NCBI GenBank assembly: GCA_002753395.1
Contig: PEAB01000035.1
Location: forward strand, 1-34,837
Length of the DNA stretch: 34,837 nt
Origin: Nitrospirae bacterium MYbinv3
Lineage (GTDB): Bacteria; Nitrospirota; Thermodesulfovibrionia; Thermodesulfovibrionales; Magnetobacteriaceae
Direction of reading: 5' to 3'
Below are positions 24,432 through 32,636 of this stretch, in pieces (the stretch's first letter is position 1; every line of letters begins with the position of its first letter). Made by a program: the position numbers and the translations under genes. Below the pieces are notes generated by a model, which was not told where the DNA came from, did no database searches, and saw only the letters and a program-made list of their open reading frames with translations.

Positions 24432-24767
24432 TCAGTGTGAAGAGAGCTTAATCAACACGGCTATGGCCGCAACACCGGCTGTCATAATCGTGCCAAGCCG
24501 TATTGAAAGCCGTAATTCAAGCTCCTTGATATCTCTTGTAAGCCTGGCTTCAAGCTCCTTGATATCTCTTGTGAGCCTGGCTTCAAGCTCCTTGATATCT
24601 CTTGTGAGCCTGGCTTCAAGCTCTTTCAGGTCCCGTTTTGTTGCTAACCCCCCTTCTATTAGTTCGGACAGGGCTTCTGCCTGTACCTCGGCTTGTCCCT
24701 CTGTAAATCCAACAGACTTTAATTTTTTTACAAATAAGTGTGTGTCAAATATGAGTGTGTCTTTCAT
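24432..24767 (-). CDS. Coiled-coil protein with 11-residue repeats and C-terminal membrane helix
   Basis: This is a 111-residue protein resembling the DUF1640/CCDC90-type bacterial proteins. An N-terminal helical region (FVKKLKSVGFTEGQAEVQAEAL) is followed by LATKRDLKELEARLTRDIK. The 11-residue unit ELEARLTRDIK is then repeated three times before a diverged ELELRLSI. It ends in a membrane helix (GTIMTAGVAAIAVLIKL). The repeated units should form a long continuous coiled coil that may set the distance between the head and the membrane. The ribosome site GGAGG is good. The DNA repeats are almost identical, suggesting recent expansion. The function is unknown. Confidence 0.85.
   Translation of the reverse strand: MKDTLIFDTHLFVKKLKSVGFTEGQAEVQAEALSELIEGGLATKRDLKELEARLTRDIKELEARLTRDIKELEARLTRDIKELELRLSIRLGTIMTAGVAAIAVLIKLSSH
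24516..24632. repeat. 33-bp tandem repeat inside the coiled-coil gene
   Basis: The 33-bp units begin at 24516, 24549 and 24582, with a partial unit from 24615. They differ at only one or two positions (GTAAGCCTGG against GTGAGCCTGG). One unit encodes 11 residues (three heptad-like turns), so copy-number change keeps the frame. Confidence 0.9.
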
Positions 24768-25278: not shown

Positions 25279-25411
25279 GGGTGTATAAGAAACTTATGGG
25301 TCATCCTGTGGGGCATCTTGTCTTTGCCGTGCTCGACACGGCAATCCACAAGCTAATAGATTCCTGCTTTCGCAGGAATGACATAGTTTCCCACGACTTT
25401 CTTATGCACTC
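25279..25411. mobile_element. MITE-like element (133 bp) upstream of the kinase gene
   Basis: The ends are GGGTGTATAAGAAA and, on the other strand, GAGTGCATAAGAAA (12 of 14 match). The flanking sequences are ACAGCAAC (25271-25278) and ACTGCAAC (25412-25419), a near-perfect 8-bp duplication. Inside are the hairpin TTGCCGTG-CTCGA-CACGGCAA and a GATTCCTGC-TTTC-GCAGGAATGACA palindrome. No module A copy is inside this one. Confidence 0.75.
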
Positions 25412-25514: not shown

Positions 25515-27983
25515 ATGAAGAAGACCGAGTGGGTTATCGGAGATGTGCTAATGGACCTCTACGAGATAAGGGAGGTCTATACCACTGGCGGGATGGGGGT
25601 GGTCTACAAGATATTTCATAGGGGTTGGAATGTTGAGTTGGCTATGAAAAGTCCAAGGCCTGAGTACTTTCAAACGGAGATACATAAGCGCAATTTCGAG
25701 CGTGAGGCTGAGACATGGATGGACCTCGGGCTGCATCCAAACATAGTAAGCTGCTACTACATAAGACGTATTGTTGACATCCCCCGCGTCTTTGCCGAAT
25801 TCCTCGATGGAGGCTGTCTAAGGGACTGGATACGCCAACGTAAACTAACTAGCCTGGAAACCATCATAGATATAGCGATACAGTTTGCCACAGGGCTGCA
25901 CTATGCACACGAACACGGACTGGTGCACCAGGATGTCAAACCTGCAAACGTTATGTTGTCCAAAGACGGCATGGTCAAGGTCACAGACTTTGGACTGGCA
26001 AAGGCAAGGGCAATGACTGACGGGGGTGCAGCAGCATCCCATCAAAATAAAGAAGATATGGATATGACCCTCCATCGAGGGGCGCTTGTGAGCTTTGGCG
26101 GTATGACGCAGGCCTACTGCTCCCCAGAACAGGCAAGCTTCAGCCCCCTGTCAAAAAAGACAGACATATGGTCATGGGGGGTATCCATATTAGAGGTCTT
26201 TGTTGGAGGAGTAACGTGGATGAGCGGAAACGTGGCCGCCACTGCATTAGAGGGATACATCAGTCAGGGGCCAACTGACCACGTCATACCGCTTATGCCC
26301 GCTGCCATCGTAGGCCTCCTTAAGAAATGCTTCAATAAGGACCCTAAAGATCGTCCTGAATCAATGCTTGAGATAACAAGCGAATTAAAAGATATCTATC
26401 ATAAGGTTACCGGCAAGAAGTATCCACGGACCCAATACCTGGCTGGACGTGCAACTGCCGATAGCATCAACAACAGGGTAATCTCACTCATAGACCTTAA
26501 GAAAACCAAAGGGCTCGCCTCTATCTGGAAGGATGCTCTAAAAACAGACCCTCATCACTTTGAATCCACATATAATCTGGCTCTGTATGAATGGAAAAAC
26601 AGCGTTATTACGGAGAGGGAAGTCTTTCGGAGGATCAATGCAATCACCCCAAAGAGCCATCTAAATTGGCGGCAACAGCACCTTTTAGGAAAACTATACT
26701 TGTTCTTCGGCAACTACTCAAACGCTGTTGAGACGCTGTGGAAGACTCAACGTCCAGAACAGGCGTCGGCTGCCGAGATAAAAGACCTGGTACTAGCCCT
26801 GTGTGCTGAGGGAAAAAACCTTAGTACCACGGTTGGTAATAAAGACAGCGCTGCCACACTCTTATGGAAAGACGTTGAAAAACAATGCAAGATAATCATA
26901 GACACCATGCCCACAAACATCGACCCTTACATAGTTACCGCCTACACATTGTCACTAACCAGACAAGGCAGACAGAGGGAGGCCCACGAGTTTTATGGCC
27001 AGTATAGCGAAAAGCTGTCTACTACTTCGTTACAGTTAGCCCCACCCGCGCTGCCTTCCTCCCTTACCGGTGTCTCTCATCGCTATCTACCCGGTTTTGA
27101 GGTGCTACACACCTTAGAGGAACACAACGGGCTTGTCAGCTCTATAGCAATTACCCCGGATGGCAAAAGGGCGCTTTCTGCAGGCAGCGACGACCGATCC
27201 GTGCGCGTGTGGGACATCGAGGAGGGGGTGTGTCTGTCCACCCTGTTTGGACACAACGACTGGGTTACCTCGGTGTGCGTTACCACCGATGGTAGGTTTG
27301 CCATCTCAGGCTCAAACGACAAGACCCTGCGCCTGTGGGATATAGGTACCAGCTGCGAAAACACCACAGGCAGATGTATCCGGGTTTTCAGCGGCTCTAC
27401 GGACAGGATAACGGCCGTAGCCGTTACCCCCGACAGCAAATACGTCTTAGCTGGGGGTAACGATGCGTTGCTGCGTATGTACAACATGTTGGATGGCAGG
27501 CTGGTACGGCTTTACAGTGGACACGAAAGCAGGATCACCTCCGTGGCAATCAGCCCGGACGGCCTGTATGCAATAAGCGGCAGCACGGATAAAAAGGTGT
27601 GTATGTTCAACATCGTTACAGGCAAACTGATCCGTACCTACACAGGCCACACGGAGGGTGTAACGTCTGTTGCCATTAGCCCTTCGGGGGGGTTAGTGCT
27701 ATCAGGGAGCGAGGACAAGACCCTGAGACTCTACAACACCCTAACAGGCCACCCAGTGCATACCTTCTACGGGCACACCGGGGGCGTTTTAAGCGTTGCA
27801 TTCTCCCCGGACGGCTCACAGGTCATATCCGGCAGCGTTGACGAGACGTTGTGCCTATGGGATATACATAACTACCAAAGGCTCCACCTATTTAAAAAAT
27901 TTGAAGGCCCTGCCGCTTGGCCATCACACCACCGGACAGCCACACATCTACAAGGGCAGTGTATAGCATCTGGAACGGTATAA
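25515..27983 (+). CDS. Ser/Thr protein kinase with WD40 propeller (first of three frames)
   Basis: This is an 822-residue Hanks-type kinase. Marks are the Gly loop VYTTGGMGVVYK, catalytic Lys in ELAMKSPRP, HEHGLVHQDVKPANVML (HQD in place of HRD), VTDFGLAKA, AYCSPEQASFSPLSKKTDIWSWG (split near residue 215) and DPKDRPESM. Residues about 290-510 are helical and TPR-like (GKLYLFFGNYSNAVETLW). From about 530 come six full WD40 blades of the GHxxxVxSVAISPDGxxxxSGSxDxTLRLWDI type. The last 22 residues are not WD40-like. The seventh blade is completed in the -1 frame at 27917 (LAITPPDSH, then VYSIWNGIKILEL), so this frame probably ends prematurely. There is no membrane helix. The targets are unknown. 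Confidence 0.9.
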   Translation: MKKTEWVIGDVLMDLYEIREVYTTGGMGVVYKIFHRGWNVELAMKSPRPEYFQTEIHKRNFEREAETWMDLGLHPNIVSCYYIRRIVDIPRVFAEFLDGGCLRDWIRQRKLTSLETIIDIAIQFATGLHYAHEHGLVHQDVKPANVMLSKDGMVKVTDFGLAKARAMTDGGAAASHQNKEDMDMTLHRGALVSFGGMTQAYCSPEQASFSPLSKKTDIWSWGVSILEVFVGGVTWMSGNVAATALEGYISQGPTDHVIPLMPAAIVGLLKKCFNKDPKDRPESMLEITSELKDIYHKVTGKKYPRTQYLAGRATADSINNRVISLIDLKKTKGLASIWKDALKTDPHHFESTYNLALYEWKNSVITEREVFRRINAITPKSHLNWRQQHLLGKLYLFFGNYSNAVETLWKTQRPEQASAAEIKDLVLALCAEGKNLSTTVGNKDSAATLLWKDVEKQCKIIIDTMPTNIDPYIVTAYTLSLTRQGRQREAHEFYGQYSEKLSTTSLQLAPPALPSSLTGVSHRYLPGFEVLHTLEEHNGLVSSIAITPDGKRALSAGSDDRSVRVWDIEEGVCLSTLFGHNDWVTSVCVTTDGRFAISGSNDKTLRLWDIGTSCENTTGRCIRVFSGSTDRITAVAVTPDSKYVLAGGNDALLRMYNMLDGRLVRLYSGHESRITSVAISPDGLYAISGSTDKKVCMFNIVTGKLIRTYTGHTEGVTSVAISPSGGLVLSGSEDKTLRLYNTLTGHPVHTFYGHTGGVLSVAFSPDGSQVISGSVDETLCLWDIHNYQRLHLFKKFEGPAAWPSHHRTATHLQGQCIASGTV

Positions 27984-30757
27984 AGATACTCGAACTGATC
28001 AACCACTACTCCTTACCATACGCCATAGCCACACCAGTGTCGTCGTTAGAGTCGGAGGAACGCGAGGGGGGCTTTCAGCAAGAGATAAAGCGTGCAAGAC
28101 TCCTCATACAGAGCAACAACATCAAGGACGTACCTGCAATAATAAAGAAGGCTCGCAGCATAAAGGGCTATGAGCGAGACAGAGAGGCCCTACAGATAAA
28201 GGAGACAGTAGCGGCCTATTTCCCCAAACACGTCCCTGGCTACGACCGGAAGGAAATACTTGGCGCATGGCTGCTCAACGTGCTTGAAGGTCACACAGGC
28301 GGGGTCAACTCGGTAGCAGTCACCGAGGATGACAGATACATCCTGTCAGGCTCAGAGGACAGAACCCTGCGCCTGTGGGAGCTGGCAGCCGCTGAGACCA
28401 AGGGCGTATTCCAAGGGCACGAGGACAGCGTCCGCTCCGTGGCCATTAGCGCTAATGGCAGATATGCCCTATCGGCATCCAACGACAGAACTCTCCGCCT
28501 GTGGGACATACCAACTGGAAAATGCAGGGGTGTCTTTAAAGGACACACTGCCAGCGTGGGCACAGTCCTTTTTGGAACAGACAACCGCTATGCCCTATCG
28601 CAAGACGACAATGGCATAATACACCTCTGGGACCTGCTCAAAAAGGATACCCTGCGAACAATATATGTAAATGAAGACTCAACGACCGTAGGGAGTTCAC
28701 TAATCACTGAGCACAGCGCAACCATAGGAAGCGGTCAACTAAATAACACAACCGTTGCCCTGTATCCTGACCTCAGATACGCTATCACCGGAAGAGGCGA
28801 CGGGGTCATCTCCGTGTGGGATATTGCCCTTGAAGAACGCCTACGCTCCTTTAAAATGTTAAACAACAGCATAACCGCCTTGGCAGTAAGCTCTGACGGG
28901 AGATTTATCCTCACGGGGGGACTCTATGAGGGAGCCATCCAGTTGTGGGGTTTTAGAAGCGGCAGGCTCATACGCAGCTTTAAAGGACACACTGGCGAAA
29001 TAACAACCGTTTGTTTCAGCTCTGACGTTAAGTGCATCCTGTCTGCGGGTACGGATGAAACTATTCGTATCTGGGATATAGAGACAAGCAGGGAACTGCG
29101 CAAGTTCATCTTACACGGCAGCAAGATAAGAACTGCCATCTTTAGTCCAAGCGGGTGGCTGGCAATTACAGGCGGAGCGGATAAGATGTTAAACTCGTTC
29201 TACCTGGACTGGGACATCGACGTCGTCAACTACGAGGACTGGGATGATAGGGCAAGCCCCTATGTCGAGACGTTTTTGACCCTTCACACCCCGCTTGAAC
29301 AAAACACGTTGATGCGAAAGGGTAAACCAAAGTTTCATCAAGAAGACTCCTATGCGCTCATCAAGCAGATGAGTTTGAGCGGCTTTGGCTGGCTTACACC
29401 AGAAGGTATCCTGCAAAAACTAAGACAGCTTGAAAAAAACGCTGTTGATAGATTAATTGAATCAGAGCAAACATTTAACAAACTCTTAGACCTCAGCAGG
29501 ACCCTTATGTCAACAGCAGACACAACCCGCTGCGACAAGGATAGCAACTCCCCCTGCACGTGGATGACCGCCCTTGAAACAATAATGAAGGCTCGTTCTA
29601 TAAAAGGTTATGCAAGACACGAGGAGTTGTTAAGGGCGTATGAGAAGATATCATCCGTCTTTCCAAAGAAGAATCTATTATCAGCATGGAAGGTTAGATA
29701 CCTGGCCAGGTTAAGCGCTGAGCGCAGCAGTGGCCGTGAGTCTGAGATCAACACAATGGCCTTTAGCCTGGACAACAGGTATGTCATAACAGGTGGCGCT
29801 GATAGAAACATCTTCCTGTGGGACCTGCAAACCCACAGGGCTGGATCGGATAACTCTTTTGCCGAAACACCCATAAGGGTCTACACTGGACACATGGCGG
29901 AGATTACCTCCACAGCCTTTATAAAGAATAAACGCTTTCTCTCAGGCAGCGCAGACAGAACCCTACGGCTATGGGATATAGATAGCGGGCAATGCCTCAA
30001 GGTCTTCAAAGAACACTCTGAGGCGATTACCTCGATCTGGGCAGATCGTAATGGTTTGATAGCCGTCTGTGGAAGCATTGACGGCAGCATCCGCATATGG
30101 GACATAGAAAGTGGGGATATCCTACAGATCTATAACAACCCTTCAGGCAGCGTCAACTCTCTTACTGTAAGCCCCGACATGGCGCTGATGCTAACCGGGG
30201 GTAACGACAGGTCGCTCACTCTGTGGCAACTGTGCACGGGGCAGCGTCTGTACACCATGCAGGGACACTCTGACGTAGTAAACTCAGTGGCCATTAGCCC
30301 CAACGGGAGATTTGCCATATCAGCCAGTGAGGACAGAACCATACGCACATGGGATATTACCTCTGGTAAGGCAATCTCTACTTACGAGGGGCATACGGCT
30401 GGCGTTACCGCCGTAGAGATAAGCCCTGATGGCGCCTTTGCGATATCTGCAGGCAGAGATAATAAACTCTGCCTGTGGACGCTGTCAGACAAAAACAAGG
30501 TACATACGCTTAAGGGCCACAACGCCCCTGTAACGGCCGCAGCGCTAAGCCCCAACGGCTTTCACCTAATCTCGGCAGCTCAGGACAGGTCTATATGTCT
30601 GTGGTACCTTCAGTGGGAAGTGGGCAGCGAAAGTTCTACGGATCTTAGCAGCGAGTGCCTGGTGTACATAGAAAACTTCCTTATCCAGTACAAACCCCTC
30701 ATGAAGGATTCCCTCTTGAGAAAGGGGGGAAACCCCTGTGGGGTAGAGGTGAGCTAA
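27917..30757 (+). CDS. WD40 repeat protein, two propellers (second of three frames)
   Basis: This is a 946-codon frame beginning at TTG, with no ribosome site, inside the 3' end of the kinase frame. It first finishes the seventh blade of propeller 1, then has a linker with IIKKARSIKGYER (about 75-87). Seven blades form propeller 2 (about 120-425; blade 4 is long and degenerate). A tail module with YVETFL and GFGWLTPEGI and a second linker with IMKARSIKGYAR follow. Propeller 3 has seven blades (about 600-910), then YIENFL. The frame then shifts at a G run near 30724. The final few residues (NPCGVEVS) do not match the family. I interpret it as the middle of one protein; the TTG is unlikely to be a real start. 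Confidence 0.8.
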   Translation: MAITPPDSHTSTRAVYSIWNGIKILELINHYSLPYAIATPVSSLESEEREGGFQQEIKRARLLIQSNNIKDVPAIIKKARSIKGYERDREALQIKETVAAYFPKHVPGYDRKEILGAWLLNVLEGHTGGVNSVAVTEDDRYILSGSEDRTLRLWELAAAETKGVFQGHEDSVRSVAISANGRYALSASNDRTLRLWDIPTGKCRGVFKGHTASVGTVLFGTDNRYALSQDDNGIIHLWDLLKKDTLRTIYVNEDSTTVGSSLITEHSATIGSGQLNNTTVALYPDLRYAITGRGDGVISVWDIALEERLRSFKMLNNSITALAVSSDGRFILTGGLYEGAIQLWGFRSGRLIRSFKGHTGEITTVCFSSDVKCILSAGTDETIRIWDIETSRELRKFILHGSKIRTAIFSPSGWLAITGGADKMLNSFYLDWDIDVVNYEDWDDRASPYVETFLTLHTPLEQNTLMRKGKPKFHQEDSYALIKQMSLSGFGWLTPEGILQKLRQLEKNAVDRLIESEQTFNKLLDLSRTLMSTADTTRCDKDSNSPCTWMTALETIMKARSIKGYARHEELLRAYEKISSVFPKKNLLSAWKVRYLARLSAERSSGRESEINTMAFSLDNRYVITGGADRNIFLWDLQTHRAGSDNSFAETPIRVYTGHMAEITSTAFIKNKRFLSGSADRTLRLWDIDSGQCLKVFKEHSEAITSIWADRNGLIAVCGSIDGSIRIWDIESGDILQIYNNPSGSVNSLTVSPDMALMLTGGNDRSLTLWQLCTGQRLYTMQGHSDVVNSVAISPNGRFAISASEDRTIRTWDITSGKAISTYEGHTAGVTAVEISPDGAFAISAGRDNKLCLWTLSDKNKVHTLKGHNAPVTAAALSPNGFHLISAAQDRSICLWYLQWEVGSESSTDLSSECLVYIENFLIQYKPLMKDSLLRKGGNPCGVEVS

Positions 30758-32286
30758 ACAGCTTCCTAAACGAGTTAAGATACAGAAACCTCGGAGGTAT
30801 AAGACCGGAGGAGGTTACGGGGAGGCTGGTACAGCTTAGCGATGAACACAGTCGTAGGGCTGTTGAGCTTGAGGACTCCTTTGTCAGACTGATAACCCTG
30901 GCAGACAGTTCCCTACGGTTACAAGAGTTATCAACCCATTCCGTACGGTCGCTGGTGGGAGCAGGGGATCCCTTAAACGAGAGATCTTACGAAAAGAGCT
31001 TGGAGCTTATAACCAAGGCCCGCAGCATCGAAGGCTACGACAGAGACGTCAGGGCGTTGCGCATCTCGGATGAGTTGTCAAACGTCTATCCTCGAAATAA
31101 GCTAAAAACCCTGTGGAAGCAAAAGACCTTGTCAGCAGGGGGCACAACAGGGTTCAATGCCATGACGTTTGCACCAAATGGCCGTTACTCAATCATAGCT
31201 GACTGCAATAAGACGCTGTCTCTGTGGGATATAGACACGGGGCAATCTTTTAGGGTATTTAAAGGCCACCAAGACGACGTTACCTCTTTAGATGTCACCG
31301 CAGATGGCAGACAGGTAGTCTCTGGCAGCAGAGACTCTACCCTGCGCATGTGGGACGCCTCAACAGGTCAGGAGATAAGGGTCTTTGAAGGTCATACAGG
31401 GGGTATCAACACCGTAGCAGTTACGGCAGAAGGCAAGCACGTCATCTCTGGGAGCGAGGACAGGACGCTGCGCCTGTGGGACACCTCAACAGGCACTCGG
31501 GTTAAGGTCTTTAAGAACAACAACATGATGGTTAAATCCTTGAAAATAAGCCCAGATGAGTCATATATCTTTTGTGGAAGCTCAGACGGGAGCATTGTCT
31601 TTTTGGACATAAGGTTGAAAGAAGTCATATACACGTTTAAAGGTCATCAGGGGGATGTAACATCGCTCGCCATCTCACCCAACGGACGTTACATATTCTC
31701 CGGCGCTGCAGATACGAAGATACGTCTCTGGGACATACCAACGGGGGAGTGTTTTCGCATCTTTGAGGGACATACGGGGGCAATAACAACGCTGGCAGCA
31801 ACACCCAACGGCCGCTATCTCGTCTCAGGCAGCGCTGACAAGACTGTACGTATTTGGGACATACAGACTGGCGAACTATTTCAAGTAATACAATGGCACA
31901 CTGGGCCGATAACCACCGTTGCTATCAGCCCCAGCGGGAGTCTGATGCTCACTGGCGGTATTGACGCCTTTGCATACCTGTGGTACATGGACTGGAGTCT
32001 TCAAGTAAGACCCATGACTACGAATTGGGATGATGGCGCTAAGGCATACTTAGAGGCGTTCCTCTGTATACAGATGCAAAAACTCAGCAGCCGCACTGTA
32101 TTTTCAAAAAAACCACAGTGGTCAGATGACGACTTCAACACCCTCCTGAAAAAACTCGCCCACGCAGGCTACGGATGGCTAACCCAACAAGGTGTTAAAC
32201 AAAAACTCAACGAAATGGCCAATAAATGGAAATCCCTACACACAGAAAAAAAACAATTCTTTGAAAAACAATTCAGAACTACATAG
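30655..32286 (+). CDS. WD40 repeat protein, fourth propeller (third of three frames)
   Basis: This is a 543-codon frame. Its first ~25 codons (from GTG 30655) overlap the previous gene and are not family-like. From KPLWGRGELNSFL onward it continues the tail module of propeller 3 (NLGGIRPEEV takes the place of GFGWLTPEGI). A linker with LITKARSIEGYDR follows, then seven WD40 blades (about 165-455) and a final tail module with YLEAFL and GYGWLTQQGV. It ends in a Lys-rich helix. There is no ribosome site at GTG. An antitoxin-like gene follows 17 nt after the stop with its own strong site. Confidence 0.8.
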   Translation: MPGVHRKLPYPVQTPHEGFPLEKGGKPLWGRGELNSFLNELRYRNLGGIRPEEVTGRLVQLSDEHSRRAVELEDSFVRLITLADSSLRLQELSTHSVRSLVGAGDPLNERSYEKSLELITKARSIEGYDRDVRALRISDELSNVYPRNKLKTLWKQKTLSAGGTTGFNAMTFAPNGRYSIIADCNKTLSLWDIDTGQSFRVFKGHQDDVTSLDVTADGRQVVSGSRDSTLRMWDASTGQEIRVFEGHTGGINTVAVTAEGKHVISGSEDRTLRLWDTSTGTRVKVFKNNNMMVKSLKISPDESYIFCGSSDGSIVFLDIRLKEVIYTFKGHQGDVTSLAISPNGRYIFSGAADTKIRLWDIPTGECFRIFEGHTGAITTLAATPNGRYLVSGSADKTVRIWDIQTGELFQVIQWHTGPITTVAISPSGSLMLTGGIDAFAYLWYMDWSLQVRPMTTNWDDGAKAYLEAFLCIQMQKLSSRTVFSKKPQWSDDDFNTLLKKLAHAGYGWLTQQGVKQKLNEMANKWKSLHTEKKQFFEKQFRTT

Positions 32287-32303: not shown

Positions 32304-32498
32304 ATGCTGGAAATAGTAAAAAAATACATTGTAGATGAGGGTAATAACAGGTTGGCATTAGAGATCGACATCGTGACATTCAATAAGATCGAGGAGATTT
32401 TGGAAGATTACGGACTTTACCATCTAATGATTGATGACAAGGATATGGAATCTCTTAGCCCTGAACAGGCAAAAGAATATTACCGCTCAATTTCTTGA
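32304..32498 (+). CDS. Antitoxin-like small protein (orphan)
   Basis: This is a 64-residue protein. KKYIVDEGNNRLALEIDIVTFNKIEEILEDYGL followed (after a break at about residue 40) by SLSPEQAKEYY resembles short type II antitoxins that pair with RelE/ParE-type toxins: an N-terminal dimer strand and helix, then a toxin-binding tail. AAGGAGG (32289-32295) 8 nt upstream makes the start secure. No toxin gene follows; downstream is a repeat pair. It is 17 nt after the WD40 gene and probably co-transcribed. The gene is well supported, but the antitoxin role is inference. Confidence 0.75.
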   Translation: MLEIVKKYIVDEGNNRLALEIDIVTFNKIEEILEDYGLYHLMIDDKDMESLSPEQAKEYYRSIS

Positions 32499-32564: not shown

Positions 32565-32636
32565 GGATTCCTGTTTACACAGGAATGACATATTAGAAAA
32601 CGGTCATTACTGTCATTCCCACGAAAGTGGGAATCC
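32565..32636. repeat. Inverted pair of REP-like palindromes
   Basis: GGATTCCTGTTTACACAGG then AATGACA (32565-32590), and in the opposite orientation TGTCATTCCCACGAAAGTGG then GAATCC (32611-32636). Each is itself a palindrome of the GGATTCC-GGAATGACA type also seen at 25363-25385 and 12820-12834. There is no gene in 32499-32694. Confidence 0.8.

Follow-up and report, generated by a model that had tools for sequence, protein, structure and literature searches.

The window, as we call the whole 34,837-nucleotide stretch of DNA from Nitrospirae bacterium MYbinv3 analysed here, carries three same-strand ORFs that cover positions 25515-32286 (+) in its ORF list and that belong to a single gene. Our preferred reading is that this gene probably encodes one soluble Hanks-type kinase of the architecture P1-(B-P-A)x3, in which P stands for a WD40 propeller and A and B for two linker modules, that the protein is a docking scaffold derived from a two-propeller ancestor, and that the copy found here was either split recently or misassembled. 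The expected size of the product, if the three frames are joined, is ~2,255 residues, and the full order of its parts is kinase, TPR-like region, P1, B, P2, A, B, P3, A, B, P4, A (Table 1). An AGAAGG-like ribosome site lies immediately 5' of the first ATG, and the start region of the gene is also kept in the relatives. Pfam reports WD40 repeats in all three frames (E 3.5e-64, 3.7e-114 and 7.2e-69 for frames 1, 2 and 3, respectively). Kinase and WD40 parts thus reside on a single polypeptide, since frame 1 alone holds the kinase and six blades and the arrangement is complete in the relatives.

Table 1. Features of the four-propeller kinase gene, in positions of the window.
Feature	Position	Strand	Detail
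Frame 1	25515-27983	+	822 aa
Gene start and N-terminal leader WVIGDVLMDLYEI	25515..25583	+	ATG 25515
Protein kinase domain	25584..26360	+	Pfam PF00069, E 2.2e-37
TPR-like helical region, kinase to propeller 1	26445..27074	+	Pfam TPR models
Propeller 1	27099..27998	+	Blades 1-6 in frame 1, blade 7 spans the first junction
Frame 2	27905/27917-30757	+	946-950 codons
First frame change	27906..27920	+	Net +2 vs all intact relatives (codon comparison, seven relatives)
Linker 1, module B only	28049..28231	+	Profile A2 positions 84-144, E 3.9e-9
Propeller 2, seven blades	28271..29194	+	WD40 profile; AlphaFold2, 28 strands
Linker 2, modules A + B	29201..29689	+	Profile A2, E 1.6e-59
Propeller 3, seven blades	29729..30604	+	WD40 profile; AlphaFold2, 28 strands
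Linker 3, modules A + B, broken by the second frame change	30605..31116	+	Profile A2
Frame 3	30649/30655-32286	+	543-545 codons
Second frame change, at AAAGGGGGGAAA	30721..30732	+	Net +2 vs relatives, run of six G
Propeller 4, seven blades	31135..31983	+	WD40 profile; AlphaFold2, 28 strands, pLDDT mostly 85-95
C-terminal module A, protein end	31984..32283	+	Profile A2, E 7.8e-22

The search for orthologues covered 60 related genomes. An uninterrupted orthologue of 2143-2282 codons occurs in seven relatives of the same genus and family, namely G001 and G002 from the same genus, G005, G011 and G015 from one other genus, and G006 and G008. The sequence-only reading had taken the three frames as parts of one protein made of a kinase, a TPR-like region and 7+7+7+7 blades, with linker modules shared between the propellers. 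This reading of the domain plan is supported, seven relatives encoding such a protein in a single open frame. The profile returns 7/7/7/7 blades in five of the seven intact orthologues, and 25 and 26 blades in G006 and G008, with gaps where divergent blades would fit. Two further orthologues were met, one in G013 that is split once, into two frames (L041 5357-11640), and one in G017 that runs off its contig; the G013 split may indicate that the gene is prone to assembly errors or decay. Within the family, the search met the four-propeller form in genera g1, g3, g4 and g6 but not in g5, g7 or g2, the last represented by four genomes that are each at least 93% complete. Scanning named genomes with a WD40-rich piece reported distant WD40 matches only (25-31% identity), in cyanobacteria, a Clostridiaceae and a Myxococcota bin.

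The Pkinase match spans residues 24-282 of frame 1 and includes a GGMG loop, K45, HQD(140)VKPAN, DFG at 158-160 and SPEQ. K45, D140, N145 and D158-F-G are invariant in all eight sequences, that is, the window and its seven relatives, and the domain has PDB matches to PknB/StkP kinases. Fold match and full catalytic residue set together identify the window protein as a predicted Hanks-type Ser/Thr kinase. In the catalytic loop, G006 has HRD, and the window and the other six relatives have HQD; lacking the HRD arginine, the window kinase is a non-RD variant, a subclass feature that leaves Hanks-type membership unaffected. Regarding the ensuing TPR-like region, the window scores E 0.001 and 19.6 bits, under the Pfam cut-off of 24.4, and TPR_1 reaches E 5.9e-11 in the relatives. 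The four-propeller kinase has no transmembrane segment, its peak 19-residue hydropathy staying below 1.9 as compared with 2.5 in a membrane-anchored paralogue.

Blades were counted with a WD40 profile built from the window's own sequence, which reports 6, 14 (7+7) and 7 blades in frames 1, 2 and 3. In P1, blade 7 is divided between the frames: frame 1 encodes its N-terminal part, frame 2 the C-terminal IWNGIKILEL. AlphaFold2 models of frames 2 and 3 give P2, P3 and P4 28 strands each, arranged as seven four-stranded blades with a blade pLDDT mostly between 70 and 95. Each closed ring therefore has seven blades, P2-P4 by profile and model and P1 from sequence with the frames joined. The earlier proposal that seven blades per propeller emerge only on joining the frames holds for P1, whose blade 7 is cut by the junction, but not for P2-P4, the second junction lying in linker 3. 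The propellers are mutually ~30-37% identical, and a tree of 56 propellers clusters them by position and not by species, with support of 0.998 for P1, 0.79 for P3 and 0.60 for P2, where one G008 propeller intrudes; P4 propellers also cluster together, G008 excepted. Because the propellers are orthologous by position, the array of four rings is old and its order has been kept. Recent blade amplification is ruled out by the identity between propellers and by their grouping by position.

The linkers are built from module A (~80 residues, WDDxAxPYLExFL...GFGWLxPEGVxxKL) and module B (~65 residues, KARSIKGYxRD, reading KARSIKGYERD in linker 1). Both are predicted, at low confidence, to be helical. 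No Pfam family matches them above cut-off, and their PDB matches, to TPR-like helical or designed proteins, are weak. In linker 3, profile A2 matches 30605-30730 and 30718-31116 in different frames. The A+B linker profile is matched in 17 of 19 genomes of the family; in a sample of 295 genomes of the phylum it is found in 8, every one from this family, with zero matches outside it. Within this phylum sample, the linker profile and the giant kinase are restricted to one family.

The window copy departs from its intact relatives at the two frame changes, the first of which adjoins a further in-frame insertion of 12 bases. When the three frames are compared with G001 and G002, dN/dS lies at 0.14-0.28 in all of them, similar to the 0.20-0.30 between these two intact genes, and extra stops are absent from all three pieces. 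The three window frames are thus under purifying selection, so that the break is recent if real, or else an assembly error. There is about an even chance that the living organism has an intact gene and that both frame changes arose as assembly or consensus errors, the draft being fragmented and this region rich in repeats. The two separate changes fall within one long repeat-rich gene, selection on the stop-free pieces is normal, the orthologue of the G013 draft genome is split too, and the assembly consists of 175 contigs. However, when compared with the relatives, neither change amounts to a plain slip of one base in a homopolymer, and comparable genes are seldom split elsewhere in the sampled assembly. 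To estimate how often, 498 kb of the assembly was compared with ~800 kb of G001: among 38 orthologue pairs scored, the kinase gene and one other are split (1/37 of the others). This argues mildly against an assembly that is rich in errors throughout, and does not separate a real lesion from a local error. The same figure, set against two independent frame changes in one gene, speaks for a genuine lesion that has recently turned the gene of this strain into a pseudogene, a reading that we regard as a serious possibility falling somewhat short of an even chance. The extra 12-base insertion beside the first change and the presence of a two-propeller paralogue in the same genome point the same way, although the dN/dS of the three pieces is not above that between intact relatives and no further stop has accumulated. 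If the frame changes are real, the product here would be limited to a truncated kinase-TPR-six-blade protein.

It is very improbable that programmed ribosomal frameshifting joins the frames. The sequence AAAGGGGGG at the second junction looks like a slippery run, but a slippery heptamer is absent at the first junction, from the frame-2 stop to the frame-1 stop, and the seven relatives are continuous without any shift; as a general mechanism it is ruled out, the shift site not being conserved. That the three open frames of the window are three separate genes has practically no chance of being correct and is ruled out by the seven single-frame relatives, the homologue search having met no trio of conserved genes, each with a start of its own, and frames 2 and 3 lack convincing ribosome sites and start inside a blade and inside a linker, respectively.

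A shorter relative of this kinase is almost family-wide. This two-propeller paralogue, kinase-TPR-P-B-P-A, comprises ~1240-1280 aa with 7+7 blades and is found in at least 11 other genomes of the family; the MYbinv3 genome itself holds an intact copy of 1246 aa on contig C102. The paralogues (that of C102, L043, and L046-L060) share with the window protein the same kinase, TPR-like region, B/A modules and seven-bladed propellers, and likewise have no membrane anchor, but possess two propellers instead of four. In the kinase tree, the four-propeller clade (support 0.90) and the two-propeller clade (0.73) separate as sisters. Judging by the linker order common to both, the four-propeller kinase may have grown from a two-propeller ancestor through repetition of a B-P-A cassette. 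The neighbourhood of the two-propeller kinase on C102 (L043 1770-5080) includes genes for an FHA-kinase and for a PP2C phosphatase-FHA protein, a possible sign of a Ser/Thr phosphorylation network. Another gene of the same genome (L044 5944-10911) encodes a 1656-aa kinase with WD40 repeats, a module-B-like linker and one transmembrane segment, the C-terminal part of which appears HEAT-like by eye.

Fusions of kinases with WD40 repeats are already known. PkwA of Thermomonospora curvata combines, as here, a Ser/Thr kinase with a seven-bladed WD40 propeller (PMC6113231, PMC5587647), but has a single propeller (PMC6113231) as compared with four in the window kinase. The cyanobacterial STKs in the accessible part of PMC2176072 also place a WD40 array after the kinase, their entries reading WD40(7) or WD40(6), hence at most 7 repeats. 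The same order is found in the STKs of Ca. Uabimicrobium, whose arrays reach 19 WD40 per protein in a survey of Planctomycetota kinases (PMC11032199), a number exceeded by the 28 blades reported here. These are mostly membrane proteins with a WD40 part predicted to be periplasmic (PMC11032199), in contrast to the soluble window kinase. Prokaryotic WD40 proteins with fourteen repeats are common (PMC5587647). Among solved folds, the P2-P3 piece best matches the double propeller of Npun_R6612 (PDB 2ymu), which has 14 blades in two rings; its blades are highly repetitive, whereas the window propellers share only the modest identity given above. As far as the accessible part of PMC8546545 describes it, the bacterial kinase PknG is likewise soluble and uses a TPR part as scaffold. 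It is not known to carry WD40 propellers. A limited search of open-licence papers yielded zero reports of a 28-blade kinase.

Hu et al. argue in general terms that several WD40 domains make a larger scaffold (PMC5587647). The propellers and the TPR-like region would dock substrates or regulators close to the kinase, giving a cytosolic scaffold kinase on which several faces serve for docking; this putative multi-partner function is inferred from the domains. It is unlikely, in our judgement, that the propellers are instead sensors or autoinhibitors of the kinase and not docking platforms, a reading in line with the view that WD40 input faces of bacterial kinases receive diverse signals (PMC11032199) and with the coupling of signal detection to phosphorylation by the TPR part of PknG, as described in the accessible part of PMC8546545. 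Returning to the docking scaffold, its four-propeller form would have arisen from the two-propeller ancestor by repetition of the B-P-A cassette. More tentatively, and with rather limited confidence, it can be viewed as a lineage-specific expandable scaffold kinase, in which tandem B-P-A repeats provide four distinct, long-conserved docking rings that may gather partners in a signalling complex. The genomic context gives no pathway, because the neighbours differ between the window and the relatives: the window gene comes after ffh, trmD, rplS and rnhB (ribosomal operon), and in G001 and G002 the kinase gene adjoins a GGDEF response regulator and a chemotaxis receptor. No conserved operon context was found in this comparison.

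The surroundings of the gene display several features of their own. A 27-base palindrome-like repeat, GATTCCTGCTTTCGCAGGAATGACATA, flanks it at 25359-25385 and 32566-32592 and has 223 matches in the MYbinv3 genome, on both strands (98 + 125, with at most 3 mismatches), as compared with zero for the reversed control. Downstream, 18 bases past the kinase stop, a gene at 32304-32498 encodes a 64-residue RelB-like antitoxin (Pfam PF18506, E 8.8e-24), beside which the ORF list holds no obvious toxin partner. Upstream, on the reverse strand, positions 24432-24767 encode a CCDC90-like coiled-coil protein with near-identical ELEARLTRDIK repeats.

Automatic annotation of the draft genome could show this gene as three unrelated proteins. 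Bacterial kinase-WD40 fusions are known, but few of their docking partners are. Two-ring and four-ring kinases with matching cassettes coexist in one family, which makes the contribution of each ring testable, and the same two forms allow testing how large scaffold kinases grow.
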